Assembly (NCBI GenBank): GCA_033297075.1
Contig: MU858130.1
Location: 62,001-126,000, forward strand
Source: Rhypophila decipiens
Lineage: Eukaryota > Ascomycota > Sordariomycetes > Sordariales > Naviculisporaceae
Length of the DNA stretch: 64,000 bases
Reading direction: 5' to 3'
Of this stretch, positions 12,745-56,000 are shown piece by piece. The notes under the pieces are model-generated. The model made no database searches, was not told the origin of the DNA, and was given only the letters and a program-made list of their open reading frames with translations. Numbering within the stretch: the first letter of the stretch is position 1; every line of letters starts with the position of its first letter. Position numbers and translations under genes: made by a program.

Positions 12745-15700
12745 ATGGCGTCTTCAACAAGATCTGAGCTTTCCAGCTGGCTAGAGAGAGATGTGCCCGT
12801 CCGGTATAATCCCGTCATAGTCGCCCTCAGCTTCTTTGTGAGCTTTGTCGGCGCCTGGTCCACAGTCGAGCTGATCAACAGGAGGACGTCGAGGAAAGGC
12901 CGCCATAACCAGTATGTTCTTAGCTTCAGCTGCCCCTTCCACTTGACAGCCATGATAACATCCACCCTCTCCACAGCATACTCCTATTTGGAGCAGCGGT
13001 ATCCATGGGTGCCGTCGCCATCTGGTGCATGCACTTTATCGGCCTCAAGAGCGTCGTCCTCCTCAACGGCGAGCCCGAGCTCCAAGTATCGTACTCGATC
13101 GGCATGACGGCCCTCTCCTTCTTCGTGCCCATCCTCGTGCTTCTCGTCGCCTTTTATGTCGTCACCATGAGCACGACGGCCTGGTGGAATGTCGGGCTCA
13201 GCGGGAGCTTGAGCGGAGGAAGCATCTGCGGAATGCACTATTTGGGGAACGCCTCGATCGACAACTATCGGTGTCACTACAACATTGCCCACGTCGCGGG
13301 GGCGGCGGTGATTGCGGCGACGGCCAGTACAGTTGCTCTGGCGCTCTTCTTTGTCTTTCGAGCAACCTGGGCCAATGTTTGGTGGAAGAGACTTGTTTGT
13401 GCCCTCGTCCTGGCCGGCGCTGTTTCTGGTACGTTTTCCCTGAACCGATACCGTAATAACAGAAACATGACTGACTCCCGGTCCCCTCCACAGGCATGCA
13501 CTGGGTGGCTTCTTTGGGAACGTACTTCCAGCTGACCCGTCTCAATGCTGCTGGTGAGGATACTTCGAGCATGACCACCGTCATTGTGGTCGCCTGCCTC
13601 TCGATTGGCGCTTGCTTCGTCATGGCCGGCTTTGCTGTTTATTCTGCTCACGTCCGGAAGGGCTACTCCAAGAAGGCACAGAGAATTACGCTGGCAGCTG
13701 CCGTGTTTGACCGCCATGGCCGGATCCTCGTGACACCTGACGGCCACCTTCCCAGTGAAGAGATTACCAGCACCTTCCTCCAAAAGACACGGGACGATGT
13801 TTTCTCAACCGCACATCCACTTTTCCACTGGGTCTTCCAGGCCTCCCGCAACTGGCCGAGCATCACTAACCTGGTCGAAAAGATGGGCGATCACCTCACC
13901 ATGCTGGCCAACAATGGCAACGGACGCAATGCCCGACTCGGAATCGAGCTTGTCGACGACGACGGCCATTTTATCGAGAATTACCAGACCATCTTCAAGG
14001 AACTCTTTTGCCTCGCGGCTTCGAACCTTGCCGACAAGATGGACGAGATCCTCGAGGACGCCGGAATTCTGTGGGATGAGATCTTTGCGACGGGCGGTGA
14101 CCAGAAGCAGTTCGCCGAGGGCCCCAAGGTGTCACTCAAGAATCGACTCATCAAGAAAGCCAATGCACCAGGCACTGTCGATTCCGGCTCCGAAGACCTC
14201 GCCGAGAAGGGACTGGCGTACAAGACCGACTACCTCCGACACGGCTCGCTCATGTTCCTCGTCCGCCGAGTGGATTCGCCCCGAGCAATTGAGAAGCTCG
14301 AAGCGTCAGGATACTGCTTTGCCGACCTCCGCCAAGTAGCTCCCATCATTGGCTCCAGCATGCAGATTCGCACGCGCCGCCTTGAGGACCGTCTGCGCAG
14401 GATGGCCAATTACAACCACAACACCATGCAGGAGGCCGGAGTCCACGTCGGTCTCTTTGCCGTCCAACCCCGAATCGACGACAACGTTCTCTTCGACATT
14501 GTCGTCAAGCGACATGCCCGCAATCTTCTCCCTTCCGTCAAGCTGCCCCTCGAACGCCTCGAACCAGCCCATGTCGACTTTTTGCGCCGCTACGAGAACC
14601 TCACCCTTTCCGCTCTCTCTGACCAGCTGCGTAGAACCATAACCGCGGACTCGCCGGAAACAGATGGCAAGTTTGGCACTCTTCTCCTCGAGGCCATTAC
14701 CGAGCTGCGGTCCATCTCCCAAGATCCCATCTTCGACCAGGCCAAGCTGCTGGCCAAGATTACCCAGATTCCGTGCAAGGTCCAGTACTCGGATAGCGTG
14801 CGTCCCTCGTCGGCGCAATTCATTACCTTCTCCATGATGGTCCCAGTCCACGCCGTAGTCCACGCCCCCCAATGCGAGTTCATTCCGCTGCAATTCTTCA
14901 AGGTTCAGCAGCTCGTCTACCCCAACTCATCCCACCACGCCGCCTTTGCTCGCTCCGTCCACCGTGAGCTGGCGCCTATTCTCAATTCCATTCCCACGCC
15001 GCCATCCAGAGCAGCCATGTCGTCGTCATCGAGCAGTATCCGACGAATGGGATGGTCTTCTCGGGTGCGCCGAGCAGCCAAGACAACATCTTTTGCGACC
15101 CGTCGAACTAGCAAACGCGAAGACTCGGACAAGATTGTTCTGTCACCTAGCCGGGATCAATTCACCACCGCAAATTCTTCAAACCATAGCATGGCTTCCT
15201 TGCCATTGTATCAATCTGACGGCCGTAGATCCGTCACACCAAGCAGCACCCGCGCATTGGGACCTAATTCTCCGGCGCTGCCTCCGCAACCAAGATCTCC
15301 CCTGCCGTCGCCTTCCCTCGGCGGGGCAGAAAAGTCATTAACCATGAGCCTTGCTCGATCTCGCTCCATTCAACGGAGGGCACAGCAGGCCGCCCCAGCA
15401 TCGCCGCAACCTCCTCAGAGCCCCCTCCCCGGTTCACCATTAACACCGCCACCACCACCTCAAACATTCCTGGGAACCTCATACGGTGGTATCATGGTTT
15501 CCCAGGAAGTCACAGTGGTAGTCGACTCGGCACCAGCAGACCACTCGGATCTAGCGGCCTTGGGTCTGACATCTACATCCACGACATTGGCACCGAACCT
15601 AACCGGTCCAATCATCGCACCCGCAGTGCCATTACCACACCAAGACTCGATGGATACCATGGACGAAAGCTACCAAAGAGACAGCATCGAGATGGGAGAC

Positions 15701-24794: not shown

Positions 24795-26981
24795 ATGGCG
24801 CCCTCTCCCAAAATCGTGATGGCGACGCGCTTGCAGCATCGGGCAGCTCAGGGGCTGCCCTCCCTCTCGATATGGGCCCGATCTGCCTTGTGCTCGCAGC
24901 AGCACCACTCCCGACAAGCCTCTCTCCTCCTCCGTCGCCCTTTTCCCTCGCTCCGAGTATTCTCGACCACCTCTCCCTCTCTCTTTCGCGACTACAAGCC
25001 CTCGCCCCCAGAGGCACCACCAACAAGCAATGCCACCAAGATCCCGCCCTCCCTCTCCAAAGATGCCAAGTCGACCTCGCGACCGCCCCCCGTTGACCCC
25101 CTCGCGGCAATCGACAAGTCGGCGCAAGAGCAGCGCAAAGCCGACTGGGCCATCATGAAAGAAATGTCGCGCTACCTCTGGCCAAAGGACAGCTGGGGCG
25201 ACAAGTTCCGCGTCGTGCTGTCAGTAGGCCTCTTGATCGGCGCAAAAGTCCTCAACGTCCAGGTACCGTTTTACTTTCGCGAAATCGTCGACAGCCTCAA
25301 CATCGACTTTGCGACAACAGGCGGGACAGCAACCAGCGTCGCAGGCGCCATGATCCTCGGCTACGGTGCGGCCAGAATCGGCGCGGTAGTATCCCAAGAG
25401 CTGCGCAACGCCGTCTTTTCGTCCGTCGCGCAAAAGGCCATTCGCCGAGTAGCCCGGAATACGTTTGGGCATCTGCTCAATCTTGACCTGAGCTTCCACC
25501 TGTCCAAACAAACCGGTGGTCTGACTCGCGCTATTGACCGAGGAACCAAGGGCATCAGCTTCTTGCTGACGAGCATGGTCTTCCACATCGTACCGACTGC
25601 GCTGGAAATCACCATGGTCTGCGGAATCCTGACCTACAACTTTGGCTGGGAATTCGCGGCTATCACGGCCCTTACAATGGCAGGCTACACGGCCTTCACA
25701 ATCTGGACGACAGCCTGGAGGACGAAGTTCAGACGACAAGCCAACGCAGCTGATAACCGCGCGTCGACGGTAGCAGTCGACTCGCTGATCAACTACGAGG
25801 CAGTCAAGTACTTCAACAACGAAAAGTACGAAATAGGCCGGTACGACAAGGCCTTGCAGCAATACGAGAAGTCCTCCATCAAGGTGGCTACCTCTTTGGC
25901 CCTTCTCAACTCGGGCCAAAACATAATCTTCTCGTCCGCCCTGACGGTAATGATGTATCTCGGCGCGCGAGGAATAGCAGATGGTTCGTTGTCGGTAGGC
26001 GACCTGGTATTCATCAACCAGCTCGTCTTTCAGCTTTCTGTGCCGCTCAACTTTCTCGGCTCTGTATACCGGGAGTTGCGCCAGTCATTGCTCGACATGG
26101 AGACACTCTTCAACCTCCAAAAAGTCAACGTCTCGATTTCAGAATCGCCCACCGCAAAACCCTTGGCTCTACCCAAAGGAGGCGAGATCAAATTCGAGAA
26201 CGTCACGTTCGGGTATTACCCTGATCAACCTATCCTTCGCAATTTGAGCCTGACCATTCCCGCGGGCAAAAAGGTTGCGATAGTCGGACCCAGCGGATGC
26301 GGAAAGTCGACGCTTTTACGCCTCTTGTTCCGATCATATGACGTCCAGTCTGGCAGGATCTTGATCGACGACCAGGATATCCGCTCCATCAAGTTGGATT
26401 CCCTCCGTCGAGCTATCGGTGTCGTCCCCCAGGACACGCCATTGTTTAATGATACAGTGGAACATAACATCCGCTATGGGAACCTTGATGCCCCACCCGA
26501 GGCGGTGATTGCTGCTGCGCAGAGGGCACATATCCATGATAAGATTCTGAGTTTTAGAGATGGATACCAGACTATGGTTGGTGAGCGGGGCCTCATGATT
26601 TCAGGGGGTGAGAAGCAAAGACTTGCCATGTCGAGACTGTTACTGAAGGACCCGCCGTTGTTGTTCTTTGATGAAGCTACCAGTGCGCTGGACACACATA
26701 CCGAGCAGGCTTTGATGGCGGATGTGAACGGGATTTTGAAAGACAAGAGAAGGACATCGGTGTTTGTGGCGCATCGGCTGAGGACCATCTTTGATGCCGA
26801 TTTGATTATTGTGCTCAAGGAGGGACATGTTGAGGAGATGGGCGGCCATAGGGAGTTACTTGAGCAGGGGGGTCTTTACGCTGCGCTTTGGAGGGCTCAG
26901 GAGATGTTGCACCATAAAGAGGAGGAGGAGGGAGAACAGGAGGCAGTGGATGAGGATGCTGATGGGGAGCAAAAGAAGTGA
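24795..26981 (+). CDS. ATM1: Mitochondrial Fe-S ABC transporter ATM1
   Basis: Single exon, 728 residues. It is a half-size ABC exporter of the mitochondrial inner membrane that sends a glutathione-linked sulfur species out for cytosolic Fe-S assembly. An Arg/Ser-rich presequence (about 1-60) and a linker precede six transmembrane helices (about 135-430). The ATPase domain has Walker A GPSGCGKS (498-505), Q-loop PQD, signature ISGGEKQ (602-608), Walker B LLFFDE (622-627) and an H-loop His at 660. The signature begins Ile-Ser instead of the usual Leu-Ser, a conservative change. The conserved TM-domain segment around NYEAVKYF is intact. The C-terminus is acidic and Glu-rich. Length and layout fit fungal ATM1 (about 690-730). 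It is convergent with VPS54; the stop codons are about 245 nt apart. Confidence 0.95.
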   Translation: MAPSPKIVMATRLQHRAAQGLPSLSIWARSALCSQQHHSRQASLLLRRPFPSLRVFSTTSPSLFRDYKPSPPEAPPTSNATKIPPSLSKDAKSTSRPPPVDPLAAIDKSAQEQRKADWAIMKEMSRYLWPKDSWGDKFRVVLSVGLLIGAKVLNVQVPFYFREIVDSLNIDFATTGGTATSVAGAMILGYGAARIGAVVSQELRNAVFSSVAQKAIRRVARNTFGHLLNLDLSFHLSKQTGGLTRAIDRGTKGISFLLTSMVFHIVPTALEITMVCGILTYNFGWEFAAITALTMAGYTAFTIWTTAWRTKFRRQANAADNRASTVAVDSLINYEAVKYFNNEKYEIGRYDKALQQYEKSSIKVATSLALLNSGQNIIFSSALTVMMYLGARGIADGSLSVGDLVFINQLVFQLSVPLNFLGSVYRELRQSLLDMETLFNLQKVNVSISESPTAKPLALPKGGEIKFENVTFGYYPDQPILRNLSLTIPAGKKVAIVGPSGCGKSTLLRLLFRSYDVQSGRILIDDQDIRSIKLDSLRRAIGVVPQDTPLFNDTVEHNIRYGNLDAPPEAVIAAAQRAHIHDKILSFRDGYQTMVGERGLMISGGEKQRLAMSRLLLKDPPLLFFDEATSALDTHTEQALMADVNGILKDKRRTSVFVAHRLRTIFDADLIIVLKEGHVEEMGGHRELLEQGGLYAALWRAQEMLHHKEEEEGEQEAVDEDADGEQKK

Positions 26982-27226: not shown

Positions 27227-30200
27227 TCAGCTTTCCTCGTTCTCTTCCCTTTCTGTCTCGACGGCCGCAGCAGATGGAGCATCCAGCACTGCCATCTTGA
27301 CATGCTGGGCAGCCTTCACAATCGTCGTCAGGTATCCACCAGCATCATCAAAACCCCCTATCCTGCCGAGGTTGGATTCAAAATACTGGACATCAAGAAG
27401 CAAGCTACAAGATATACCAGGCTAGAAGGTCTTTCTGGGTGCAGTTATGCATCTTACCTATCCAGTCCCACTTCCGTCATAGAAGGACGACCGATAATCT
27501 CTTGAAAAGCCTGGCCGAGCTGGGCCTTGTAGGTGAGAAAGACGGGCACCATGACCATACTCACCACTTGTTCTTTTGGCATTATCTTGGTCAGGATGCG
27601 GTGCAACGACGTCGTGTCCTTGACTAATTCCGCCATGTAAGGATGTGCCTCCTTCTGGCCATCGTTCTCCCAGTCAATACCTTCCAACGCCCTGACGCGC
27701 GAGGCCAGCAGGCGACTCATGATATCGACCAACTTGTCATGTATGCGATTCTGGTGCTCTAGATAGAGGCCCTCGAGCTCGTCAAATTCCACGACACGTA
27801 AACCAGTCTTGCGTCGAAAAAGCTCGCGGACGTAGCTGGTCAGGATGGCGATGAATCCCAACGCCTGTGACGCGAGAGCAAGGTGCTTGGAGGTGATGTT
27901 TTTGAGTTTTGCGGCGGACTCTCTGGCCCCTGCATCCAAGACAAGTCGTGTGCAGCACGCGAGGAAATGGCGAAGATACGAGACCAGTAAGGCCGAGATG
28001 TCGGGGGCTATCGATGGCATGCCCGAGACGAGTTGCAAAAAGGAGGACAGACCGTTCATGCAGAGGATTGCAGAGCTGGGAAGGACATACTCTTGCTCGC
28101 CAATGCACGCTTTTGTCTTGGTCCTGGATTTGCTACTGCTGCTTCTGGATTGACCCTCGGGGGGGTCGCCATTGGAACCGCATGGAATCCAAACTTTGAG
28201 ACCGTCAGACCATTCTGGCGGCGGGTCTGTTGTACTGCAGGACGACAAGATCCGGTTGAGCTCGGCCGTGTCGTTCTCTGTAAAGTCCGTCGCCTCCCAC
28301 TGGTCAGATTCCATGCCCTGTGTGAGTGTTTGTATCTCCGTCTCGCCGTAGTGCTGGATACACTGTTTAATGTGTTTATTCACCACCGTCTTAAAGGCTG
28401 TACCGCTTCGCCCAGAGATGGATTCGCACTCGCTGACAAACCCCAGATTCAGAGAGAAGTATCGAAGGAACCAGGTTCGCGAGAGATGGGTACTCTGGTC
28501 GGAGCGAACCTCGAGCAGTTTGAGAATCCGACACTGGGCCACATCTACCGCTTCGGACAAAAGGCTTGGTAGGTCTATCGCTTTGTGGAGTTCTTGAGTC
28601 TGACGTGCGGCGATGGAGGAGTCGTGATGTATTAAGCTGGTAACCTCGAGCAGCAGCTTCACTTGTGTCGATACTCTCCTCAGCGTTTCCGTGATGCCGA
28701 CATAGATTTTAGCAAACATTGCTCCGGCATTGCCGGGCTCGAGAGCTCGTAGATTACGGGCGAGGATGGATGACTTTTGTGGGTGAGATAAATCCTTGTC
28801 ATTGGCGCTCGGTAGCGGCCGCTGGATGATGTTTCGAATCTCTTTCAGTACAGCCTCCCTGTAGGTCGAAACAATCATGGGTTGTTTCGCTCGGTGTAGC
28901 CCAGTCAAAATCTTGTGGAGCTCGGAGCTCAGGCCGCCGGTCGAGCTCAAGTAGGATGGAAGGGCCGGAACCTCTTGTGTATAACCGCCTCGTGGCAGCA
29001 CAAACGCACCGGTCCAGCGTATGAGCACCTCCTGCTTCGAGACAGCCTCAACGTGGCGCCGGAGGTCCCCCAAAAGGAGACCCAGACACCGTGCTTCGTA
29101 AGCTTTGCCGATACGGACTCGCAGAGTCGCCAAATCCTCATAAACGCCTTGCAATGCTGCTGCGCTGCTGAGGTCGCCAAGTTGAATGGTCTGTCCCTCC
29201 ATGATGCATGGCGTCCCTGATGAACTTGGCTCCCCGGAAATGAGCTTCTCGAGAGACGTGATACTGTCTACAGCCTTGTCGAGGTCACCGTTGTCAACGA
29301 GGGATTCGCAGGCGGCAAGGCCATCCACAATGTGTTTTAGTTGCAGGATGCAGTCCTGTAGCAGATGGAGATTCCGCAATCGTTGTCGCTTCTGGAAGAG
29401 GTCCCCATGGATGGCAATCTCGCCATCCAGAACATGCAGCTTGTCTCTCAAAGCCTTGATTCTCCCGACGGAATCGGTGACTTCTAGGTGCATGTCATGC
29501 AGCGAGCCTAGCGTAGTGGAGAAGGAGGCCGAAGCCAATGAAATAGAGGCTATGCGATGCATTTCGACCGTGTCGACATACCAAGATATATTTTCTTGAA
29601 GTATCGCATTCGTTGCCTGGGCTGTGCGTGGTGCTCCTCCAGTTGCGTGTGCTGGAACAAGCTCGGACCGCTCCGTAACCACGTCAAATATGCGAGGATT
29701 CTCTAGGTGAAAGTCTGAGTTGAAATAGACGGTAGGAATGTTGGTCAAACATGGTCCAGAGCTCATGATTGTTGCTGATAGCGGCTTTTCCGGCCCCGGG
29801 CTGTCGTCCTCAAGGATGCCGGCAGACTCATAAAATTTCCCAATTTTGTCCAAGTAGGGTTTGAAAACGGCTGCGTCCACTTGCGCAATGTTGGCCAATG
29901 TCACGGGCGGGATATCGAGTGAGGTTAGAGGTTTGTAAGCGCTTGATGCTGGAGCAGCGGCCTGTAGTCGTCCCGTTCGTACAATGGGCGGCTGTAATAG
30001 TGTCGATATTGCTTTTACGAGCTGTCAGCATATGCGTGTAAAAGACGACATGGAGGAAAGGCGTCTTTCAACCCTACCATTTCGCCCCGTTTCCAGCACA
30101 GCATTTGGCCAGCTCTCTGGTAACCCATCAAGTGAATAGCCGGAGCTTCCCACCAAGCCTTGTCCTTGAGGAAAGCCCACGCTTTGAGGCCTACGTCTTG

Positions 30201-32414: not shown

Positions 32415-34406
32415 TTACTTATCCCCTTTCGCATCCTCCCCAACACCTCCCGGATTCGCAACGCCCTCGTCCCAAGGGGTAAAATACCCACGACGCTGAT
32501 GCTGCCCCTGATGCGCAGGAAACATGGTAGCATAAAACTCAGTCCACCCGCCCATCCGTACCCGAACAAGGTTATACCGTTCCGGATCGGCAGTCGCCTT
32601 CTGGTAGGTATCCAAATCCGCACAAGTAAGCGTGATCAGATTCCCTCCAACAGCTCCATCCGCATATTTCCTCAGAAACGCCTGCAATTCTCGCAGGGGA
32701 AACCGCTCCGGGATATTCATATCTACCGGACTAGCATTCGACAACCCATGTTCGATACTCTTGTACGCTACGCTCTTCATCGACTGGTAAATGTTTCGGA
32801 ATGCTGGTGTGGGCGGTTTATCTTGAGGAGCAGGGACCGGGGATAGGTCGGAAGCGATTGGCATCCCATTTCGACGACCATCTGCTGATGCACCGCATGG
32901 GACACCATCGCCGACGTACCCCTCAAATGTGCCAATTCCGGGACAGACTACGAACTCGAAATCTTTGCCCAAGTTTTCGGGTTTCTTGATGTTATCCAAG
33001 AGGCTCTTGATTGGTCCGTCGGGGTCGGGATGGCGGACTGTATCGACGCAGAGACGGACTGTCTCGGTGACGAGCCAGTCACCTAGGGAGTTTACTTCAT
33101 CGTCGCCACTGCCCCACTTGGGGAGGGCGAGGGCAGCGAGACGGAGTTCTTCGTAGCGCAGGCCTCGTTCCGAGGCGTCGGCTGTGCCCGAGAGTTGGTT
33201 CTCAAACGGCTCGATCATGTTGAAGCCCCAGTCGCAGATTAGGCAGTTGAGAAGCTCGGGCAGGGTGACCCGGGCCGAGGAGGGGTCATAGACGAGCTTG
33301 TAGATGGCGTAGAGGGAGTCGATCGTGTTGGACATGCCTACGCAGAGGGGGGCGAGGATGTGGAACTTGGCACCGCCGTTGGTTAGGTCACGCCCCTTGT
33401 CGAGACAACCTTCTATGAGGGTTGACAGGAGCGGGGAGGGGCAGATGTTGGCCAGGTTGCCGTAGTTGGAGAGCATGATGTTGTAGCATTGCACTATCTG
33501 CCATTTGAGCTGGTCGAGGAAGATCTTTTGGAGCTCTGGGAAGTCGGCGATTTCGCTGGCGGGCTTGGAGCGGAAGGACATCTTGTTGCCGCGGAGTTGT
33601 TCTGGTCCTGCGACGCCGTATTGGGCGCCTTGGTTGATGGTCTGTTCGAGCGCCAGGAGGGGGGTCACGTTGTTGAAGGCGAACTCTGAGGCGCCGGCGA
33701 ACATGGGCTCGTAGCACCCGTCTGCGGCGTAGTTGCGGGACCATGCCGTGGTGACGGTGTTTCCCGAGTCCAAGAGAGCAGGGCAGAGCTTGTCGTCGTT
33801 GTACAGAATGGGCTGGGCGCCGCCAGAGAGAATGCCCCTGGCAGCTTCGTCGAGGTATTCGGTCGGCATGTCCTTGTATACGCGCAACGAGAGGGTGGGT
33901 GCGTTGACGGGGATGCGACGGGCAGCTTTGAGGCAGAGCAGGGTAACCTCGTTGGCAGCTCCTTCTGGCTTGTCATCATCGCTGGCCTTGTACCCCCCGA
34001 CGGTGATCTGCTGAACCCATTGGTTGATGCCACCTCCTTGGGGAAAGTTGCCGCCGACACCGCACACGGCTGTGGTGCCGTAGGTCACGTAGTCGTAGAT
34101 GAAAGCCCTGTTGACAAACGCATTCTCGCCAATCTTGACGAATAAGCAGTCGATGATGTCTTGAGCGCGGTCCAGGGGCGTGTCCTTGAGAAAGGCGTGG
34201 AAGATCTGGTCCAGACGGCCAAGCGACGTCAATTCACCGACAAGGTGAAGACAGCAATGAAAGGAAAATACTAGCTGGACTGCATCTTGGAAGCTACAGG
34301 GCGGCTGATTGGTCAACCGCACCAATCTCTCCGACACATCTCGCATGTTGTCAGCATCGTCCGCGTCACCGGCCTCTACTGCTTCAACGGCCGCTTTCGT
34401 TGCCAT
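32415..34406 (-). CDS. Glycyl-radical enzyme, main domain (PFL-like)
   Basis: An uninterrupted intronless frame of 663 codons from ATG 34406. It covers most of a pyruvate formate-lyase / dehydratase-type barrel. The thiyl-radical cysteine is in DGCYEP (codon 231, at 33714..33716) and is followed by the conserved Glu, as in the dehydratase-type members (GCVE) and unlike the Cys-Cys of pyruvate formate-lyase. The glycyl-radical loop near the C-terminus reads VRVRMGGWTEF, with the radical Gly at codon 620 (about 32547..32549), then an unusual AHQGQHQRR tail. The true N-terminus is not this ATG: the homologous segment continues upstream past an in-frame TGA at 34413..34415 and then into the DyP frame. 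The enzyme type is clear; the substrate is not. A radical-SAM activase is needed and none is in the window. Rare in fungi; bacterial origin is an inference from family and lack of introns. Confidence 0.82.
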   Translation of the reverse strand: MATKAAVEAVEAGDADDADNMRDVSERLVRLTNQPPCSFQDAVQLVFSFHCCLHLVGELTSLGRLDQIFHAFLKDTPLDRAQDIIDCLFVKIGENAFVNRAFIYDYVTYGTTAVCGVGGNFPQGGGINQWVQQITVGGYKASDDDKPEGAANEVTLLCLKAARRIPVNAPTLSLRVYKDMPTEYLDEAARGILSGGAQPILYNDDKLCPALLDSGNTVTTAWSRNYAADGCYEPMFAGASEFAFNNVTPLLALEQTINQGAQYGVAGPEQLRGNKMSFRSKPASEIADFPELQKIFLDQLKWQIVQCYNIMLSNYGNLANICPSPLLSTLIEGCLDKGRDLTNGGAKFHILAPLCVGMSNTIDSLYAIYKLVYDPSSARVTLPELLNCLICDWGFNMIEPFENQLSGTADASERGLRYEELRLAALALPKWGSGDDEVNSLGDWLVTETVRLCVDTVRHPDPDGPIKSLLDNIKKPENLGKDFEFVVCPGIGTFEGYVGDGVPCGASADGRRNGMPIASDLSPVPAPQDKPPTPAFRNIYQSMKSVAYKSIEHGLSNASPVDMNIPERFPLRELQAFLRKYADGAVGGNLITLTCADLDTYQKATADPERYNLVRVRMGGWTEFYATMFPAHQGQHQRRGYFTPWDEGVANPGGVGEDAKGDK

Positions 34407-34632
34407 CTTTGATCAGTTGATCAAATACTCTTTCACTCCCTGAAGCGAGTCTATGCCCGAGCGGTAAAAGTTGCCGACCCCTTTGTTCCTGTCAGACTTG
34501 GGAAGTTTGTCCAAACGGTGTTGGAGGTCTTCAATCATGCCGGCGATGCCAACCTTGACCAGACGCTCATAGTCGGGCACCACATGTCCCATGGCCGACC
34601 ATTCGTTGAGAGAGCCTTTGATCCACGGTTTT
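34407..34632 (-). pseudogene. Broken link between DyP and glycyl-radical frames
   Basis: This segment encodes the N-terminal part of the glycyl-radical enzyme in the same frame as 32415..34406 (NEWSAMGHVVPDYERLVKVG, then FYRSGIDSLQG). It is closed off on both sides: by TGA at 34413..34415 downstream, and upstream by a frame change at a four-T run on the plus strand (34629..34632). Upstream, the other frame already reads enzyme-like sequence (KELLVG, GRGKEVV). Skipping one base of the run would join the two. The TGA falls where dehydratase relatives carry Arg (an Asn-Arg-Tyr context), which fits a CGA-to-TGA change. I found no intron that removes both defects with correct phase. Either this is a recently inactivated gene or the bases are sequence errors. 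Confidence 0.6.
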
Positions 34633-36018
34633 GTTCAGATACGGCACAACTTCCTTTCCACGGCCGAGCGTAAAGTCCGGGATGAGGCCGACCAGGAGCT
34701 CCTTGGCATCAATCCGCAGCAGCCCATTGACACGAGCAATCTCGTTGGACGGGTGTGAAAGCAGACTCGCCAACGTGAACAGATTTGCCTTTCCCTTGCG
34801 GATTGGCACAGGAGCTCTCATGATACTGTCCCTCTCGGCGGCATGATGGATCAGGGTCTCCAAGTGAGGCAGCCGGGGAAAAGCCTGTCTTCTCATCCAC
34901 GAGTCGCGCCAGTGCGAGAAGGTCCTGGCCATAAGACTGAGGAGCCGTGGACTGGGTGGGTCACGGCCGACGTAATCAGGCCCTGCCATCTTGTGGAGGT
35001 AGTCTTGCGAGTTGTAAAACATGTATCCATTGGGACTAGCCACCTGCCAATGTGGATCCTCGTAGACATGCTCGGGTCCAGAGACAGACGCAATGCCGAG
35101 CTCAGCTGCAGATGGCACGTACCAATAGCTTCCGGCGATGCCGTGAACAACAGTCATAAGCTTGTCGACGGGACGCTCGATCTGGTCACCAATGAGGTGT
35201 TTGAGGATATCTTCGAAGCGCTGCTGGTCGTTGCAGAAGGCCACAAACATCAGGCCAAGCTCGCGACCAGCATGCTTGCCCGCGGAGCCGAAAGGGAGAG
35301 CCTGGCGAAGGAGCTTCCGTTGATCGCCGTTGCTGTCCCGGCTATGGGCCCGATGGACGTGGGAATGCACGGCATGTTGAGGAAGAGCGGCCCCATCCGG
35401 GTTGCGACCAATCATCTCGTCTTGGCTGTCGGCCGTCTGGGAGGCAATCCCAGGCCAGTCGAAGAGGAACTTTTGGGTGAAGCCAAAGCAGGAGCCGCGA
35501 TATCGGGCATCGCCGCCAATCAGGATATCCTCTGTGAGACTGATGGGGTCGTTTGGGTTGGTGATGCTGTCGAGGTACCGCCCGCCCATGATTCTGGCAT
35601 CTGGTCGCTTGCCGACCTCAACGGCGTCCATCTCGCAGGACAAGGCCTTGAGTCGGGGCATGAATGGCTCAAGAATCTTGTCTGCATGCTTATGTCGGGA
35701 CGCCTTGACGTAGATGAGGACATCGCCCCACGTCAAAGCAAACTTCTTGTTGCTGTTGCCCAGGACCTTGGTGCTGATGGGAATCTCACGACCTTTCCAC
35801 CGGCCCCATAGCTTTGGGTTGAAGGCAACGATCAGACCACATCCATCGTGGTCTTTGACAATGTGCTCGCTCAGGTCTTGGATGATCTGGACGGCCTGTT
35901 GGCAAATGTCGTCTCCTTTGTCTTGAAGCTTGATGCTTATGACTTGGCCGTAGATAGCGCGCATGAGGAGGCCGCGCTGGGCGCCGAGAAGGGTGTGGTT
36001 CTCCAGGATCGCTGCCAT
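34567..36018 (-). CDS. DyP-type heme peroxidase domain (N-terminal part of fusion)
   Basis: Intronless frame of 483 codons from ATG 36018. Residues 1-330 or so are a dye-decolorizing peroxidase. The distal GxxDG-type motif is GGRYLDS (D150; the usual second Gly is Ser). GGDARYRGS follows, then a proximal heme His in SHVHRAH (H220), R238 and the LMFVAFCND strand. DyP enzymes use H2O2 and heme to oxidise bulky substrates. From about residue 385 the sequence stops being DyP-like and becomes the N-terminus of a glycyl-radical enzyme (LLRIDAKELLVG). The frame therefore looks like the first part of a DyP-glycyl-radical fusion of about 1200 residues spanning 32415..36018. The last 20 or so codons before its stop are probably out of frame. 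There is no signal peptide. Confidence 0.78.
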   Translation of the reverse strand: MAAILENHTLLGAQRGLLMRAIYGQVISIKLQDKGDDICQQAVQIIQDLSEHIVKDHDGCGLIVAFNPKLWGRWKGREIPISTKVLGNSNKKFALTWGDVLIYVKASRHKHADKILEPFMPRLKALSCEMDAVEVGKRPDARIMGGRYLDSITNPNDPISLTEDILIGGDARYRGSCFGFTQKFLFDWPGIASQTADSQDEMIGRNPDGAALPQHAVHSHVHRAHSRDSNGDQRKLLRQALPFGSAGKHAGRELGLMFVAFCNDQQRFEDILKHLIGDQIERPVDKLMTVVHGIAGSYWYVPSAAELGIASVSGPEHVYEDPHWQVASPNGYMFYNSQDYLHKMAGPDYVGRDPPSPRLLSLMARTFSHWRDSWMRRQAFPRLPHLETLIHHAAERDSIMRAPVPIRKGKANLFTLASLLSHPSNEIARVNGLLRIDAKELLVGLIPDFTLGRGKEVVPYLNKTVDQRLSQRMVGHGTCGARL

Positions 36019-37108: not shown

Positions 37109-39424
37109 TCACACCACCAGTCCTTCGTAAGCCCTCTCAACAGTACGACTCCCCACACCAGGCAACATCCTCAACTGCGCCAACGAGCTAACAGAAGTCG
37201 ACTCCTCATCGCCCCTAAGAGTAAGGTAATCCACCAGATCCTGCGCCTTCTTGGCGCCGAACCCATGCAAGCTCTTGATCTTTGCCAAATCTCTCGAGTT
37301 GACGATACTGAGCAGTTGCTTTGCCCGTGGAGAATCTGGACCTTCGGCCTCCATCAGCCCAGCAGCCTTGGACTTGCTCTTTTTCGTCTTGCCCCGTCGG
37401 GGTGAGGCAATTGGCTTCTCGTCGGCAGCGTCGTCTTCTACATCTGCCTCTGTACCCTCATGGTAGGATGCCTCTTCGTCTGTTATCTTTAGGTTTTGCT
37501 CTCGTCTTCCACGCGACTTCTTTCTGGGCGTCCGTTTGACTTCCTCCACTGCAAATGGGTCCGCGACACCTCCCCTAGAAGCAAGCTTGAGCCTCAACCG
37601 CTCAATCTTGCCCAACAATTTCACCTGTCCAGGGAAATACGCCAGTGCTTGTTCATAAAGCCGCAACGCACCGGCATCATCACCACGCTCTTTCGCCTGC
37701 CTCGCCTGGAGCAAACACTGCAGTCCATCTGACCGAGCCTCATCCCCATGTTTCTTCTCGCTGTCGATCCGTCGCTCGAGCGCTTCAAGTCGTCGCTGAA
37801 CCTCGTCGCTAATTTGGTTCTGCACCGGCGCACTAGATAACTGAACCGTTACTGTGGGCGCGGCTTCTGCCTCGGCTTCGGCTGCTGCTGCCGCGCGTGA
37901 TGCCAAAATCTCGGCTACCTTCTTCTCCACCATGGCTTCGATCTGCGCTGCGGATATCGTAACCTGCGGCTCGTCTGGCGGTGCAGCTGGGCGAACAAGA
38001 GATTGTTGAGTCGGCCGGGCCAATTTCGAGGGTCGGACGGGAGACATATCAGATGGCCGTTTATGCGAATCCGGTTGTCGAAGCCGAGATGTGTTTGCCG
38101 TTGGGATGGGGATAGCCGCACGTGCTGGGGCGACGGGTCTTGCGACCTTGTCCGAAAAAACGGCAAAAGCCTTGATCGGCTTGTCCGGCTTCTCGGGCTT
38201 GTCAGGCTTGTCGCCTGCTTTGGCGGCAGGGTTCATGTTATGCGCGTTAGCTAAGGGACGCAGTGGCTGACGGATGGCAGCAGCGCCCAACCCAGAGTTG
38301 GTGCGCGGTGCCTGCTTGTAGACGACTTCGTTCTCGATCTCACGGACTTCGATGCGTTTGGCTCGGGAGCTGACGTTCAGACTGCTGAGTGTGTCGAGAT
38401 GATAGCTGCGCATGGGCGCGAGGTTGAGGATCATGACAGTGATGCCGTTGTTTTGGCCGAGGGAGAGAATGCGCGTCATCTTGGACTCGCGGTAGGGAAT
38501 GCGCCGGTCTCCGCGGGAGATGGCTTCGATGCACTGCCCGAGAACAAACAAGCTCTTGTTGATGGCCGCCGACTCGACCAGTCTCTCCTTGCCATTGTCG
38601 GTCCTGCGGTTGTCCTCAGATCCAGCCAGGTCAATGGCTGAAGCTGTGCTCTCCCTGATCATGTCGCCGGTCGTTTGGGTCACTTTGACACGGAGGATCG
38701 CGTGGCTTCGACTGCTGTGGGCGTTGAGCTTGGTCGACGCCGTGACGCGATTGTTGTTTGCCTCGATATACAGTCTCTCGAAATCCTTCAGATCCTCGCA
38801 CGACCGCTCCGATAACCCAACCACGATTGTCTTGCCGTCCTTCTCCCGGAGGGGCAGCCCAGATGGGGTTCGCTTCTCGGGAGGCTCCATCAGGTCAAAG
38901 ACCTTGTCGTTGTATATCTCGTAGTACGCCAGGGCGACCTTGACCGTCGTGTCGCCGCCCGTGTCCTTGGTGATCTTCTTCGCCCTACGGAAGACGTTGC
39001 TGAGCAGCCTGGGGATCACCCCGCGCTCGGCCAACTTGAGACCACCTCGCATCGTATGTGTCTTGCCGGTGCCGGTTACGCCGTAGGCAAAGAGCGTTAC
39101 ATCTAAGCCTTGGAAGAGAGCCTTCATGTGGGGAGCCACTGCAGGAGAGTGAATCAGTTCAGGTTAGCTTCCCGAGCGCGTCTTGTTCCGTGGAGGGGCA
39201 GGAGGGAGCTTGCCTTCAGCAGTAAATAGCTCCTCCTGCGTCGTGGACTGGTCGTAGACGCTATTGAAGGTGAACGAGAACTCTTCAGCCTCGTTCTTGG
39301 GACTGGGAATCTTGACAATCGTCAAGGGCTTCCCCTCCTCGGCGGAATCGGCTCGGACGATGACATCTTTGTCCAACTCTTTTTCAAGAAGAGGACGGAT
39401 TCTCGCAACGACGCGTACAGACAT
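37109..39424 (-). CDS. Kinesin-10 (Kid/KIF22)-like motor protein
   Basis: Exons 39214..39424 and 37109..39138; 746 residues. It is a plus-end-type spindle/chromosome motor by family. The N-terminal motor domain (about 1-350) shows the P-loop GVTGTGKT (90-97), switch I NAHSSRSH and switch II DLAGSED. A basic, Pro-rich linker with a KPDKPEKPDKP run follows, then a coiled coil (about residues 490-570) and two helix-hairpin-helix segments at the C-terminus (LHGFGAKKAQDLV and LRMLPGVGSRTVERA). Those HhH motifs mark Kid-type kinesins and suggest DNA binding. The intron 39139..39213 has a GC donor (GAAG/GCAAGC) and a TGCAG acceptor, phase 1. A CTGACC..ACAG just before the ATG suggests a 5' UTR intron. 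The gene is divergent from AIM24, which starts 540 bp away. Confidence 0.92.
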
Positions 39425-41917: not shown

Positions 41918-44401
41918 TTACTCGGCAGCACCCAAGAGCTCCTCCTCAGTCCGCTTGACCATCTCCCAGCAACGCCTCATGCCCGCCCCCATGGTCATCT
42001 CGTCCACCTGGGCAGGCGTAAGCCACCTCTGCGTCTTTCCATACATGGCCCAGTGATGATGTCGCCTCGTCTCAGGATGCGTATCATCCAGCTCGAAAAA
42101 CTGAACATACATGAACATCTTGATATGCGAGAATGTCCAGGGGATTATTCCCAGCTCGCCGACGTGTGTTATCAGTGGCGGACCCCCTGCTTCGTCCCAG
42201 TAGCGGGTTATTTCGTTTGGGATCTCGTCGCCGTATTTGTCGTAGACGGGCTCTGGGCGGGGAGAGATCAAGAGCTCGGATTTGATGATTATCTCGTCTA
42301 GGAGCTCGCGTTCTACATTTTCCGTGGTGCCCTCGGAGTTGGGCTGAAGTGGCTTGCGGGCTGGGTGTCGGGGCCTGCCCGTGAATGGTGTTGCGTCGAA
42401 AGTCGTGCTGGGGAGCTCCCACATGTTGGGGAGGAGGCCCTTGGGGGTTCGTCGCTGGATGAGATAACGCCCGTCCGAGACACGCCGGAGGGCGAAAACC
42501 TGGGATTCCTGTTGCTTGAGAGTCTTTCTCGCTGGTTTGGGTGGGTATTTTGCCGTGTGGTGGTTGATCATGGCGAATGCTCGGGCAGAGTGGACAATCG
42601 TTCTCTCGTGGTCGAGCGTGAGGATTGATTTGATGCGGTAGGGGTGCCCGTTGTTGACCTCGCGGTATTTGACGTTGGTGTTTCCGTCTGTGCAGATGCC
42701 GGCTTCTTGAGACTGGCCCTCATCGCACCATGTGCACAAGTCCTCGATGTCTTGGAGGACTTGGCGTCGTGGTCTGAGAGCTGGGGCACGATAGTCGGTC
42801 GCTTCTGTGCCCGGGCCAGAAATGTCCTCGCTGTGAAGGGCAAGCGCGAACCCTTCGCTGTAGGCGCGGCAGGTGGAAGTGATGGGGCATGCTGTGCAGT
42901 CGGGTTTCGGTGTGCATATCGTGCTCCCCAGCTCCATGAGAGCTTGGCCCAGTTTTCCCGGTTTGTCGCTAAGAGGAAGTCCCTTATGCATCATAAAAAC
43001 ACGTCGGTTGTTTGGTTCTTCTTTCTTGACATGGCCGTCTTCCTCTCCGAGCCCATCGCCCTCCTCATCAGCATCGACCAACTCGATCCCTCTAATCTCG
43101 TCCCGCACAACCTGCTCAGCCAACTCTTCAGCGGCCTTCCAGGTACAGTGCCACGCATCTGAGTAGGTACTTCGAATTTCACCAAACAAGCCCATTTGTC
43201 TGCTCATCACCCGCAACACATTCCCATCCACCAAGGCGGCCGGCTTGCCATACACAATCGCCGCGATCGCTCCAGCCGTGTACCTCCCCACCCCTGCCAT
43301 TTTATTCTGCAAGACTTCCACGTCGGATGGAATAAGCCCGCCAAATGACTTGCAAACTGTCTTGGCTGCTTGATGGATCCTCGTCGCGCGGTTGTAGTAT
43401 CCCAGACCCCTCCAAGCGTCGAGAACTTCTTGCCTGTCCGCCGCCGCAAGATGCTGGATCGTGGGCCAGCGATCCATCCATCGATTCCAGTAATCGATCA
43501 CCGTGGCCACACGGGTCTGCTGGAGCATGACCTCGGAGATCCAGACCTCGTAGGCGCGCTTCTCGAGCATCTGGCGGAGATGGGCTGATCCGTGGGGGTA
43601 CAGGGCTGGGTTAATCCACGGTTTGCGCCAGGGCATGGCGCGGTGGGAGGTCACCGAGTCGAACCAGCTGAGCAGGTCCTGCCGAGCTCCGAGGTTGTTG
43701 AGAAGCAGTGGGTGGTGGTAGCTGCGTGAGTGTCCATTGGGATCCCGACGAGCTGGGGCTGCAATGATTTGCAGATTCCACAGGGAATTTCCTGCTAGGT
43801 CCTCTCTCCTGCGCTTGTTGTTGGCCTCCCGGTCCGGGATAGCTGGGGCTCTTCTCTTGACTCTTGGAACACCGGGCTCCTCCTTGATCTCCTCCTTGAT
43901 CTCATCCTTGACAAAGTGATGAGACTCTTCTTTGAGTTCAGGTGTCACGGCACGACTTTGTGCATCATCGTCATCGGACTCTTCCGCCTGGATGTCCTCA
44001 GATTTGATGTTCACGCTGGAGGCGCGACTTTGGGCATTATCCTCGTCAACCCCTTCATCGTCGACATCCTCTTCTTTCAAATCAGGGGACATGGAGCGGC
44101 TTTGTGAACCATCGTCATCCAATCCTTCGTCATGGACATCCTCTTCTTTGAATTCTGGCGTCATGTCGCGACTCTGTGCATCATCGTCGTCATCAGCCGC
44201 TTCGTCTTTGACATACTCTTCTTTGAATTCAGGCGTCATGTCTCGACTTTGTGCATCGTCGTCATTGGGATCTTCTGCCTGGATGTCCTCAATTTTAACG
44301 TTCACGCTGGGAGCAGCGCGTGCAGGCTCCTCGACTTCGGATTTGATCTCTTCCGCGCGGGCGGCGGCCCTTCTTGTGGCTTGTCTTGTAGCGGGCGGCA
44401 T
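41918..44401 (-). CDS. Adenine DNA glycosylase MutY
   Basis: Single exon, 827 residues. It removes adenine mispaired with 8-oxoguanine in base-excision repair. The HhH-GPD domain starts near residue 235. The catalytic Glu is E290 in SEVMLQQT, and the HhH hairpin AGVGRYTAGAI is followed by catalytic D392 in VDGNV. The Fe-S cysteines are C496, C502, C505 and C511. Their spacing is C-X5-C-X2-C-X5-C, one residue shorter in the first gap than the E. coli C-X6-C. A NUDIX-like 8-oxoG recognition domain follows (about 620-800; LPNMWELPS). The first 200 residues are an acidic tail of about five degenerate repeats and then a basic KRRREDL nuclear-signal-like patch. The length is well above the usual 350-560, due to the tail and an acidic insert near 445. 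Confidence 0.93.
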   Translation of the reverse strand: MPPATRQATRRAAARAEEIKSEVEEPARAAPSVNVKIEDIQAEDPNDDDAQSRDMTPEFKEEYVKDEAADDDDDAQSRDMTPEFKEEDVHDEGLDDDGSQSRSMSPDLKEEDVDDEGVDEDNAQSRASSVNIKSEDIQAEESDDDDAQSRAVTPELKEESHHFVKDEIKEEIKEEPGVPRVKRRAPAIPDREANNKRRREDLAGNSLWNLQIIAAPARRDPNGHSRSYHHPLLLNNLGARQDLLSWFDSVTSHRAMPWRKPWINPALYPHGSAHLRQMLEKRAYEVWISEVMLQQTRVATVIDYWNRWMDRWPTIQHLAAADRQEVLDAWRGLGYYNRATRIHQAAKTVCKSFGGLIPSDVEVLQNKMAGVGRYTAGAIAAIVYGKPAALVDGNVLRVMSRQMGLFGEIRSTYSDAWHCTWKAAEELAEQVVRDEIRGIELVDADEEGDGLGEEDGHVKKEEPNNRRVFMMHKGLPLSDKPGKLGQALMELGSTICTPKPDCTACPITSTCRAYSEGFALALHSEDISGPGTEATDYRAPALRPRRQVLQDIEDLCTWCDEGQSQEAGICTDGNTNVKYREVNNGHPYRIKSILTLDHERTIVHSARAFAMINHHTAKYPPKPARKTLKQQESQVFALRRVSDGRYLIQRRTPKGLLPNMWELPSTTFDATPFTGRPRHPARKPLQPNSEGTTENVERELLDEIIIKSELLISPRPEPVYDKYGDEIPNEITRYWDEAGGPPLITHVGELGIIPWTFSHIKMFMYVQFFELDDTHPETRRHHHWAMYGKTQRWLTPAQVDEMTMGAGMRRCWEMVKRTEEELLGAAE
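43928..44308 (-). repeat. In-gene tandem repeat: acidic units in MutY N-terminus
   Basis: Residues 32-158 of MutY hold about five copies of a unit of about 24 residues with the core DDDAQSRDMTPEFKEE. Copies one and two are almost identical, copies three to five are diverged. Lysines sit in psi-K-x-E settings (VKIE, IKSE, VKDE). The DNA repeats are visible as recurrent TGCATCATCGTC and TTCTTTGAATTC blocks on the plus strand. Confidence 0.85.
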
Positions 44402-53020: not shown

Positions 53021-56000
53021 TTATTTGTCCTGTCCTTCCGACGCTGTCCGCCCATCCCCAACCCCATTCTTAGTTTCAGCACCCGTCTCTGCCCCATTAG
53101 TGCCTTCCACGACTTCATCTGAATTCGTTTCTCCATTTGCAGTAGTTTTTTCATCCGCATTCTTTTCTCCACCTGCATCATCTTCTCCATCCTTATCCTT
53201 GCTGTCGGGGTCACCCTCCTCCTTGCCTTCCTCCCCATTAGCTGCCTCACCGTCCCCGGATCCTGGTCCGATTTCATCCGCGGTTTCCTCAACAGGGGGC
53301 GGAGTCTTGACGTGATCCCACGTCTTGCCCGCCTCCAACCCTCCCCATGGCTCAGTCGCTTTAGTCAACCATTCGACGAGCTCCATAGTCTCGTCTCCTG
53401 GAACAAGAAGACCCCCCTCATTCATCTTGGGCGGGCGAACCACCATCCGGATGCTCTCGGCCCAACGCTCAGGCGTCCACTTTGGCATAAAGATCCAGTC
53501 GTGGGTAGGACTACAGACCGGGTGCCGGATCTCGGGGTTGCCAGACTTGAGTTCTTCATAGCAGGTCTCGCAAAGGTCCACGTCATAGCAGTACTTGCAC
53601 CCGTAAAAGTTAGTATCAAAGTCCCAGCTCTTGCGGGTGCCCACACAGGAGTTGCAGTGACGTGAGCCACCATCGTAACCCAGCATATCCTTGGACTTGA
53701 GAAGCATAAGAGTTTTGTGAATTTCAGTCCACGCCTCGCCGGTCCCAGCATCGTAGCTGTCTTCCAGGACCCCATCCGGGACTTGTGTACCTTCTGAGGG
53801 GGGATTTTCGTTCGCTTCAGTTCCATCCTGTGCCGGCGGTAAAACCCCCTCCGTCTTGCGGGCAATAGGAAGATTCTTGGAGGCTTCAGCTATCAATTTG
53901 TCCAGTATCTGCTCTGATTCCTGACCCGCGTTCTTCTCTGCATCGAAGAGCTGGAGCAACCTTCCGGCCGGGCTGTCATCTGGAATCTCAGACAGGCACC
54001 CAACCGGGTCAAGCAGCCTTGCGAAAACACTCCTCAAACGGTCTGGTACTTTGTCCCTGATGTGGCCGACATACGGTGGGCTCGTTAGGAAAGTGGCGGT
54101 TGTAGCATTTTCAAAGTCTCCAGAGGACAGCAAGATGGTTCTCAGCTTCGACAAGGCAAACGAGTCATTGCTCTGCTCGTCGTCGGACAGAGAGTTGATA
54201 ACCTGAACCATGTCGGGTTTGAAAACCCCCCTCGCCCCGCCGCCGTTGCCGCGAAGTGCAAGAAAAGCGGCCCTGTAGCACCTTGCATTATTCAGCTCCC
54301 CGTTGGGCACGGCCGCTTCATACTCAGCCGCCGTTTGTTCCATCTTTTGCATATACTGGAGCACCGAACTACGCATATTTGTCAACTCTTCGGGGCCCAG
54401 CTTTGGACTTGTTTGCACCATCTTCCATGCCTTCTTCGCTTCGTCAAAGTAATACCTTCCGAAATACGCTGTAACCTTGTCGTAAAATGCGTAGCTGGCG
54501 GTCTTGCCGGCTTCGTGGTGCTCCTGAGCGATATCTAGAGACTCCCTCCAGAACTGGAGAGCTAGGTTGATCTCCTCAGGACCGTCGTTGAAGAAATGAA
54601 CCAGGCCCTTATGGAACACTAGATTCGGGTAGGTTGTCGCGTTATCCGTCGAGTTCTTGGCTCGCAATATGGCTTCCCCGAAATCGGCCAACACGTTGTC
54701 GAGAAGTCCGGCATCCTTTGCGAGACTGATGAACATCCAAAATCTTTTATAGAATATTTCCCACTGTTGCTCTTCCACAACGGCTTCGATCAAGCCCACG
54801 AATGGATACGGCTTGCGTTCACCATCGCCCTCTGGGCTCATGTTCCCAGCTGCGATACTTTGGAGCAAAGCCTGAGCTTCCGCCGTCCGCTTGGTCTTGC
54901 TCAGGTAAGAAAAGAGGTTCTTTTGGGCGCCCGAGTCATCCGGTGCCAGGTCCAGCGCCAGTCTACGGTGCTTCAGCGCCCTGTCCGGTTGCTCAAACAT
55001 GAGCTCGCACCATAGAGCAACGTTTTCCAGATGCAGCAGTTTGTCTTCCTTTGCAATTTCAGACCCTTTGGGACCAAGATAGATCTCCAAGGCCTTTTCT
55101 TTAATGGCAATGGCCTCTTGTTGTTCTTCCTTCTTGCTGGCCATGTTCAGCAAGGCGTCTGATAGACCAACCATGGTGTGCCAAGTTGCCGGGTCTGGTG
55201 CAGAAAGCTCGGTCGACTTTTGGAAATTGGAAATGGCCTCCTCGAAGCGGGAGTAATTATGATATGTTCTCGCCAACTGTTCGTACCATAGTGCAGGAAG
55301 TGCGTCCTCGGACTTTCCAAGCTTCTGCCTGCACCAAGATTCAGCTTCGGCGATCTGGCGCTGGTCGGGTAAATCTTCGTCTTCGGCCTCTGGTTTATTC
55401 CAAACCTGATGTAATGTTAGCTGATCGTCCATTTTCGGACGACATACAACTTGATCGTACCTTTTCAACAAACTGGTTTATCCAAAGAAAAGCCTCGTCG
55501 TGGTATTCCTTGTCCTCGAGCCACAGTCCTGCTATCATGACCCCTAAATCCTTGACTAGGGCCGTTGTCTTATCATCAGAGTCTACGTGCTTCCTCAGCC
55601 ACTCCTCGTCTTTCGTCCCCAGATCCCTTGTTGCTGTCTTGTCCTCAAGCCATCTCCAGAACTCGGTCATGGATTCGTGGGACAAGAGGCGGCGACCACG
55701 ATACCCCGCAAACGTTTTGGTCCAGTGCGTTTCAATCACCCTGGGATCTGCGAACAACTTGTACACAAACTTTCCAATTTTGCTCTTGAGTTCGTCGTCA
55801 ATGGCGTCTAAACCGGTGGCCTCATACAATACCTTGAGGTTCCGGGCTAGGTTGCTCACCAGGCATGGTCCAATATCTTCAGTATCAGGTGTCGGCGCGC
55901 TGTTGAAGAAATCAAGTGTTGCCAAGACAATTGCCAAGTGAGCATCAACTGCGTTGACAGAAATAATTCCTTTCGAATTATTTGACTGGATATTGGGACT

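Follow-up and report, generated by a model that had tools for sequence, protein, structure and literature searches.

We analysed a window of 64,000 nucleotides from the ascomycete Rhypophila decipiens (assembly GCA_033297075.1, contig MU858130.1, positions 62,001 to 126,000 of the forward strand), which carries on its minus strand, between positions 32,415 and 36,018, a disrupted gene in which a DyP-type heme peroxidase is fused to a glycyl-radical enzyme (GRE). The upstream open reading frame (ORF 1, 483 aa, 34567..36018, minus strand) holds the DyP domain, the interdomain linker and the initial ~110 residues of the GRE, with its final ~20 residues out of frame, and in pairwise alignment it is 73% identical to residues 11–459 of P0003, an intact relative of 1208 aa. 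The Dyp_perox_C model (PF20628) matches ORF 1 residues 148–305 (35104..35577) with an E-value of 1.3e-20 and 74.3 bits against a cut-off of 20. This region holds the Asp motif GGRYLDS (35566–35586), the proximal-His motif SHVHRAH (35344–35364) and the distal-Arg motif LLRQALPFG (35287–35313), all on the minus strand; the first two are the motifs from which a preliminary description of this DNA had recognised a DyP peroxidase, and both were located. Compared with the GXXDG motif, the window reads GGRYLDSIT, with the Asp retained and both motif Gly positions substituted.

The GRE begins in the DyP frame (34630..34956, minus strand, from the alignment to P0003; in the model of a relative the GRE fold begins near residue 352) and continues in a second frame with one stop (32415..34625, minus strand), which is 78% identical in pairwise alignment to P0003 residues 466–1194; the PFL-like part past the stop is ORF 2 (663 aa, 32415..34406, minus strand). 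PF02901 matches ORF 2 with an E-value of 2.4e-79, and of 1.3e-94 when the frame is extended back to 34625 with an X at the stop. Both catalytic loops lie on the minus strand within this part: the active-site loop DGCYEP (33705..33722), with the presumed thiyl Cys and Glu, and the radical loop VRVRMGGW (32544..32567), with the presumed glycyl radical on its second Gly. The PF02901 match, the fold of a relative and the DGCYEP loop agree with the earlier identification of a PFL-like GRE from its Cys-Tyr-Glu site and RMGGW loop, and the E-values of the hidden Markov models (HMMs) together with the 73–78% identity to P0003 exclude chance resemblance. The HMM check that had been proposed for the two domains succeeds with PF02901 and PF20628, but not with PF04261, which is absent from the DyP ORF at E ≤ 1e-3 so that only the C-terminal DyP model matched, nor with PF01228, which at the same threshold has no match anywhere in the fungal genome. 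In that genome (45.7 Mb, 408 contigs) we found no second PFL-like gene. It also contains a standalone DyP separate from the fusion (G000:C1:1145154-1145672, L064; 172 bits).

The preliminary description had read the DyP frame straight into the GRE. This is correct through the first ~110 GRE residues, to 34630, but not beyond, where a frame change (34626..34629, minus strand; 4 bases compared to 18 in P0003) is followed by an in-frame TGA (34413..34415, minus strand) at a position where relatives carry a conserved sense codon. Neither ORF needs an intron to be read, as had been noted; an intron at either the frame junction or the TGA was rejected, as the residues flanking both lesions align closely with P0003 and an intron of usual length would delete conserved residues. 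Programmed frameshifting or TGA readthrough is likewise not supported, as the intact relatives that we read require neither. Thus, the DyP domain lies upstream of the PFL-like domain, but a continuous frame of ~1200 codons is absent, and at most a peroxidase and a GRE fragment would be made, because the frame change and the stop sever the Cys and Gly loops from the DyP part. The window holds a disrupted DyP–GRE fusion gene; most likely it either became a pseudogene recently or was misassembled.

Conservation around the lesions was used to weigh these two origins. In an alignment (A1) of the two window ORFs with 109 of the 119 other listed homologues (the 10 without PF20628 omitted), ORF 1 shows 0 departures from 89 positions that are at least 95% conserved in the 109 relatives, and the GRE part shows 5 from 216, the stop being one of the five. 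Conservation this good would suit a gene that is intact in the living strain, with the frame change and TGA being sequencing or assembly errors; we regard this as somewhat unlikely, as a single gene would have to carry two separate errors, one of 14 bases. The four non-stop departures (the nine closest relatives have 0–3 each, and the average over all 109 is 2.4) are a weak hint of relaxed constraint, in a comparison biased by the fact that the conserved positions were defined partly by the relatives themselves and without the window. The simplest reading of the sequence would be a recent disruption, with the DyP part well preserved.

The fusion itself is already in print, from Chaetomium (PMC5041501), and it proved to be widespread. 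Among the best 120 of the 590 homologues found with the GRE part, 109 combine PF02901 and PF20628 in a single protein of 1051–1252 aa, so that the DyP-then-GRE order proposed for a family is borne out; the remaining 11 of the best 120 comprise the window's own ORF plus ten proteins of 525–930 aa, seven of them on contigs shorter than 6 kb. Fusion hosts among the matches listed are ascomycetes (Bombardia, Cercophora, Chaetomium, Fusarium, Xylaria and lichen fungi) and bacteria, and intact fusions are common in both groups, contrary to the possibility raised at the outset that homologues would occur only as two separate genes. Two GRE-part patterns run against contigs of 84,980 bacterial and archaeal species gave 44 loci, all bacterial, and all 44 extend back into a DyP part. 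In three of these (L031, L046, L051) the main ORF is short or comes in two pieces (736, 774 and 909+457 aa), reflecting either draft errors or more broken copies. The two Actinophytocola fusion ORFs (L036, L038) have 1565–1571 aa from a provisional start, with ~280 residues ahead of the matched part; in L036 this extra N-terminal stretch (L036:9155-10000) has no Pfam match.

To place the fungal genes, a tree of 60 rows was computed from 22 fungal and 7 bacterial listed homologues (P rows), 30 loci and one window ORF by a quick method (LG+G4, midpoint root); the program warned that, among the bacterial rows, long branches had been joined and composition was uneven. The 23 fungal rows group together (SH-aLRT 99), with the window GRE part closest to the Cercophora and Bombardia proteins, and their neighbours are eight proteobacterial rows (Collimonas, Janthinobacterium, Massilia, Andreprevotia, Chromobacterium, Azohydromonas, Paracidovorax and Pseudomonas); fungal and proteobacterial rows together sit inside the wider bacterial tree. 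The tree suggested earlier as a check on bacterial origin therefore fits transfer, probably a single one into fungi from bacteria near the Janthinobacterium/Collimonas/Chromobacterium group, with the direction taken from the nesting. The gene also appears to move between bacteria. The fusions of Paracidovorax anthurii (L010:1383-5061) and Pseudomonas cichorii (L014:9845-13524) are 92% identical in DNA across the gene plus ~160 bases ahead of it, with no further similarity in the flanks compared, one Paracidovorax side being only ~1.4 kb; to judge from these alignments, this is a recent single-gene transfer.

The pairing of the two enzymes is not confined to the fusion. One fusion-bearing genome (G023) encodes a second GRE of 888 aa with an RMGGW loop and without a DyP part (L067 7290-9956), and 40 bases past it lies a separate DyP of 443 aa with both PF04261 and PF20628 (pair L067:7290-11327, G023:C44). 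This GRE has an unfused sister family of ~770–890 aa, with 444 proteins found and PF20628 in none of the best 120 of 444; named members among the matches listed include Pedobacter, Flavobacterium, Mesorhizobium, Hymenobacter and Lacipirellula, among others. On the Hymenobacter cellulosilyticus plasmid NZ_CP095048.1 (L098:9088-12427), a GRE split into two coding sequences is followed by a DyP coding sequence with a broken frame, a PLD-like gene and a HAD-like gene, and the plasmid copies of GRE and DyP both look broken; this GRE was assigned to the RMGGW type through 63% identity to an aligned member, the loop being verified directly for L067. The separate DyP is thus the next gene in both readable unfused loci (Acidobacteriota and Bacteroidota). 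These DyPs have the motifs for the distal Asp, the proximal His and the distal Arg, except that in the Bacteroidota copy the reading frame is broken ahead of the latter two. No ORF with a CxxxCxxC motif was present in the flanks read of the two loci. While the unfused G023 gene and its sister family refute an obligate fusion, they tie the DyP–GRE association more firmly, because the unfused GRE also adjoins a DyP.

We then examined conserved residues in 50 fusion rows (alignment A3: 20 P rows and 31 of the 44 loci, less L037, which was represented by a wrong-strand ORF) and in 17 unfused proteins (alignment A4: the G023 protein and 16 of the 119 other listed ones). The family radical loop is R[MQ]GGW, unlike the RVSGY/RVAGY of four canonical GREs with which RMGGW aligns. 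In the two catalytic loops, 50/50 fusion and 17/17 unfused rows retain the Cys, the Glu, both Gly, the Arg and the Trp, and the unfused rows all read RMGGW. The same holds for three tryptophans, W1165 (which adjoins the Gly), W938 and W373 in the numbering of P0009, where the four canonical GREs, three of PFL type and one other with no dehydratase Cys-x-Glu type among them, have Tyr, Phe/Tyr and a gap or Leu, respectively. On the DyP side, the proximal His column is conserved in 50/50 and the distal Arg column in 46/50 fusion rows. PF01228 matches weakly, below its cut-off and at the expected position, in L033, L045 and the unfused G023 protein (22 bits), and one fusion (in G036) barely exceeds the cut-off.

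The glycyl radical of a GRE is described, in the accessible part of PMC11528403, as installed by a dedicated radical S-adenosylmethionine (SAM) activase, usually encoded nearby. We searched for such enzymes in the genomes of 40 of the 44 loci (L041, L044, L047 and L050 omitted). The GRE-activase model TIGR02494 gave a match at E ≤ 1e-20 in 4/40 fusion genomes (G001, G002, G019 and G029), at E ≤ 1e-3 in 33/40 and above the curated cut-off in 2/40, the best match outside the four being 8.3e-14. These four are exactly the genomes that also contain a canonical GRE (PF01228 at E ≤ 1e-18, with a PF02901 match from the start of the profile). In the other 36, the PF02901 search revealed no PFL-like protein outside the fusion family and the unfused relative, each having one fusion locus except G008 (two fusion-length frames), G040 (a split one) and G023 (fusion plus unfused relative), and a canonical activase at E ≤ 1e-20 is absent from all 36; the best match in G023 (1.4e-5) is not strong. 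As a control we took 120 genomes from the phylum of G001 (Pseudomonadota), 20 of which have PF01228, 19 besides G001. All 19 canonical-GRE genomes contain a TIGR02494 match at E ≤ 1e-20 (14/19 over the cut-off), each within ~4 kb of the GRE. NrdG-type activases (PF13353, at least 90 bits) occur in 7/40 fusion genomes, and 30/40 have a strong match of neither type, including 18 of the 24 not titled as metagenome-assembled genomes (MAGs). No protein in alignment A3 contains CxxxCxxC, and among ORFs of 150–900 aa up to 10 kb around the 44 loci, only four in three loci do so.

In the fungal genome, six radical-SAM matches were found by a search made exon by exon, which a split gene could escape: MoaA, LipA, BioB, TYW1, Elp3 and an orphan (L007, 1357-2268). 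A radical-SAM protein of this genome, encoded outside the window, shows 98% identity over 88% of its length to a protein of Rhypophila sp. PSN 637, in line with a member of the Sordariales near Rhypophila. The accessible part of PMC5041501 names a radical-SAM protein annotated as a PFL activase (CHGG_03160 type) in C. cochliodes as the putative activase, and we infer that L007 and CHGG_03160 belong to the same family. Some L007 homologues are indeed annotated 'pyruvate formate lyase activating enzyme' (best 120 of 7,998, 70–98% identity), and NCBIfam PFLA is among the L007 matches, at 24 bits against a cut-off of 231.75. L007 homologues among the matches listed include Neurospora, Trichoderma and Colletotrichum, names not found among the named rows of the best 120 of 590 fusion homologues, many rows of which are nameless. 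Strong relatives of L007 (E ≤ ~1e-48) are confined to G012 and G019 among the 40 bacterial fusion genomes; the match in G029 is that genome's canonical activase. Contrary to the published suggestion, L007 is thus a poor candidate for a dedicated partner. None of the radical-SAM models matched any of the ten window ORFs scanned.

Taken together, because a DyP is fused or adjacent, a canonical activase is mostly absent and the gene has once been transferred alone, we propose the peroxidase as the source of the radical. In this scheme H2O2 would convert the heme of the DyP domain to the ferryl state (compound I), and a protein radical on a conserved Trp or Tyr would travel either to R[MQ]GGW near the C-terminus or directly to the Cys in the GC[YF]E active-site loop. 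A small hydroxylated compound would then be the substrate for GRE-type thiyl-radical chemistry in the PFL-fold domain. The heme peroxidase, whether it is fused or encoded by the next gene, would stand in for the radical-SAM activase, much as the radical generator of aerobic ribonucleotide reductase does, and the radical would be produced on demand, when peroxide is present. We infer every chemical step of this relay. The R[MQ]GGW enzymes, DyP-fused or DyP-adjacent, may accordingly form an activase-free class of thiyl/glycyl radical enzymes whose catalytic radical is made by a heme peroxidase and H2O2, a tentative reading to which we give a probability of about 0.37; for the intact fusion alone, priming of the GRE by the peroxide-fed heme domain is possible with slightly less reserve. 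The unfused pair raises this reading slightly. DyPs are described as oxidising bulky substrates via surface Trp radicals, oxidising equivalents passing between heme and surface Trp (PMC8165797, accessible part), and, according to the accessible part of PMC5041501, induction of the fusion gene in Chaetomium is 3-fold with H2O2 and 18.5-fold with peroxyacetic acid.

Several observations weigh against peroxidase priming. The contrast between 0/36 and 19/19 (Fisher's test, 3.6e-15) is drawn from genomes that are not independent, and 16 of the 40 are titled MAG. Every genome has other radical-SAM proteins, and the activator could come from a family that the models do not cover. The conserved Trp and Tyr could be structural. 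In four of the 50 rows (L019, L026, L030 and L045), the distal Asp is replaced by His and the distal Arg by Gly or Ser, while the proximal His and the GRE loops are retained; losing both distal residues together should impair a normal DyP, and three of the four genomes (G012, G023 and G036) are also without an activase. In G023 a complete DyP adjoins the second GRE, which leaves G012 and G036 unexplained if the peroxidase is the primer. In a further 10/50 rows the distal Asp is Glu. The host of L019, Candidatus Scalindua, is an anaerobe, so not all hosts are aerobes. Finally, the DyP–GRE pairing in itself fits a guard role equally well.

This last possibility, raised in the preliminary description as a guarding of the radical against peroxide, would have a radical-SAM enzyme of an unrecognised family activate the GRE while the DyP clears peroxide near the radical. 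A dedicated activase is how GREs are otherwise described, weak radical-SAM-type cross-matches do occur in the searched genomes, the pairing persists when unfused, and the peroxide induction in Chaetomium would suit a guard as well. Set against this are the 30/40 fusion genomes without a strong activase-model match, when the activase adjoins the GRE in 19/19 controls, and the usual poison of a glycyl radical, which is O2 rather than H2O2. We therefore consider the guard role unlikely and rank it below priming, because the absence of a canonical activase in most genomes is left unexplained. Improbable to a greater degree is a GRE fold that has given up radical chemistry and now binds substrate for the peroxidase or supports it structurally. 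The missing activase and the altered radical loop, with no PF01228 match in the fungal genome, would agree with such a loss, but a scaffold has no need of the catalytic-loop residues kept in 50/50 and 17/17 rows, and the sub-cut-off PF01228 matches in L033, L045 and the unfused G023 protein lie at the expected site. Slightly less probable again is the published assignment of a radical-SAM protein, here perhaps L007, as activase of the fungal GRE part, which has the naming in C. cochliodes, the annotation of some L007 homologues and the PFLA match in its favour and against it the distance to the PFLA cut-off, the fungi that have L007 homologues and are absent from the named fusion homologues, and strong relatives in just 2/40 bacterial fusion genomes.

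The neighbours of the bacterial fusions offer a hint about the substrate. DUF2608-type ORFs lie beside the fusion at seven loci (one was run through Pfam), PF04185-type ORFs near it at six (three run through Pfam; one on the other strand, 1.9 kb off), and PLD-like ORFs adjoin two fusions (L026 and L045) as well as the unfused Hymenobacter gene. Genes of the DUF2608, PF04185 phosphoesterase and PLD-like types follow the fusion directly at L022:13711-16160 (similarly in L021 and L023), L018:13574-15109, L026:13891-15756 and L045:13365-15305, and a DUF2608-type ORF stands alone at L020, L028 and L049. By crude clustering, no neighbour family occurs in more than 7 of the 44 loci. These genes may point to lipid head groups as substrates.

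Genes of TIR, CHAT and STAND-type NTPase families lie near both unfused pairs (L067:4550-6073 and 13467-15563, L098:3971-6337, all on the minus strand) and may or may not mark a conflict-system setting. A defence system is not supported by PADLOC, which gave nothing for a fusion (P0038), the unfused GRE or the unfused DyP, with weak to moderate matches only for the PLD and HAD ORFs. The unfused family has no relative in viral contigs, and a single unannotated match of 26% identity in phages. Elsewhere in the fungal window are ORFs for an ABC transporter (24795-26981, plus strand), a Vps54-like protein (27454-29904, minus), a kinesin (37109-39139, minus), an HhH-GPD plus NUDIX protein that we take to be MutY-like (41918-44401, minus) and an NPHP3-type NTPase (55395-57818, minus).

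GREs are regarded as anaerobic enzymes that depend on a radical-SAM activase, and the fungi, actinobacteria, myxobacteria and cyanobacteria that carry the fusion are mostly aerobes. If priming by the peroxidase is true, a widespread peroxidase-paired GRE family would break both rules and would represent an oxygen-era route to C–O, C–N or C–C radical chemistry, and the published activase assignment for the fungal fusion would be put in question. In a literature search mostly without subscription journals and preprints, PMC5041501 was the only paper found that describes the fusion, and no prior report was found of a missing canonical activase, of the divergent radical loop or of DyP genes next to the unfused GREs. 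The main text of PMC9064869 contains none of 'formate', 'PFL' or 'fused', and no DyP–GRE fusion was found in the accessible parts of PMC4420034 and PMC4619462.

Among known systems, the fusion of Chaetomium cochliodes and C. globosum is the closest, having the same domain order and 'none' in the apparent intron column of its table in the accessible part of PMC5041501. That part also covers horizontal gene transfer of the fused clade between proteobacteria and ascomycetes, the peroxide induction and a putative activase, and it calls the significance of the fusion elusive. The window GRE part is 73–76% identical to the Chaetomium and Chaetomidium fusions P0005, P0006 and P0008, but the window copy is disrupted, unlike the Chaetomium fusion, for which the accessible part of the paper assumes an ordinary activase. 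The glycerol/diol dehydratases and choline trimethylamine-lyases are the fold neighbours of the GRE part (1r8w, 9rco and 5fau), yet P0003 falls far under their equivalog cut-offs (117 of 1050 bits for CutC), and the fusion family differs from them in the R[MQ]GGW loop, in mostly having no canonical activase and in the heme peroxidase fused or adjacent to it. From DyP-type peroxidases such as DtpB (8pws), it differs in the fusion to a GRE and at the distal site, with Glu for Asp in 10/50 rows and both residues gone in four. The proposed scheme would add a third priming mode for the barrel of the GRE and ribonucleotide reductase type, beside radical SAM and the metal, Tyr and cobalamin generators of ribonucleotide reductases. 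Class I ribonucleotide reductase, in which the thiyl radical of a 10-stranded barrel is supplied by a separate generator that depends on an oxidant, serves here as a working analogy only; its generator is a di-iron/Tyr subunit, whereas in the proposed scheme it would be a heme.

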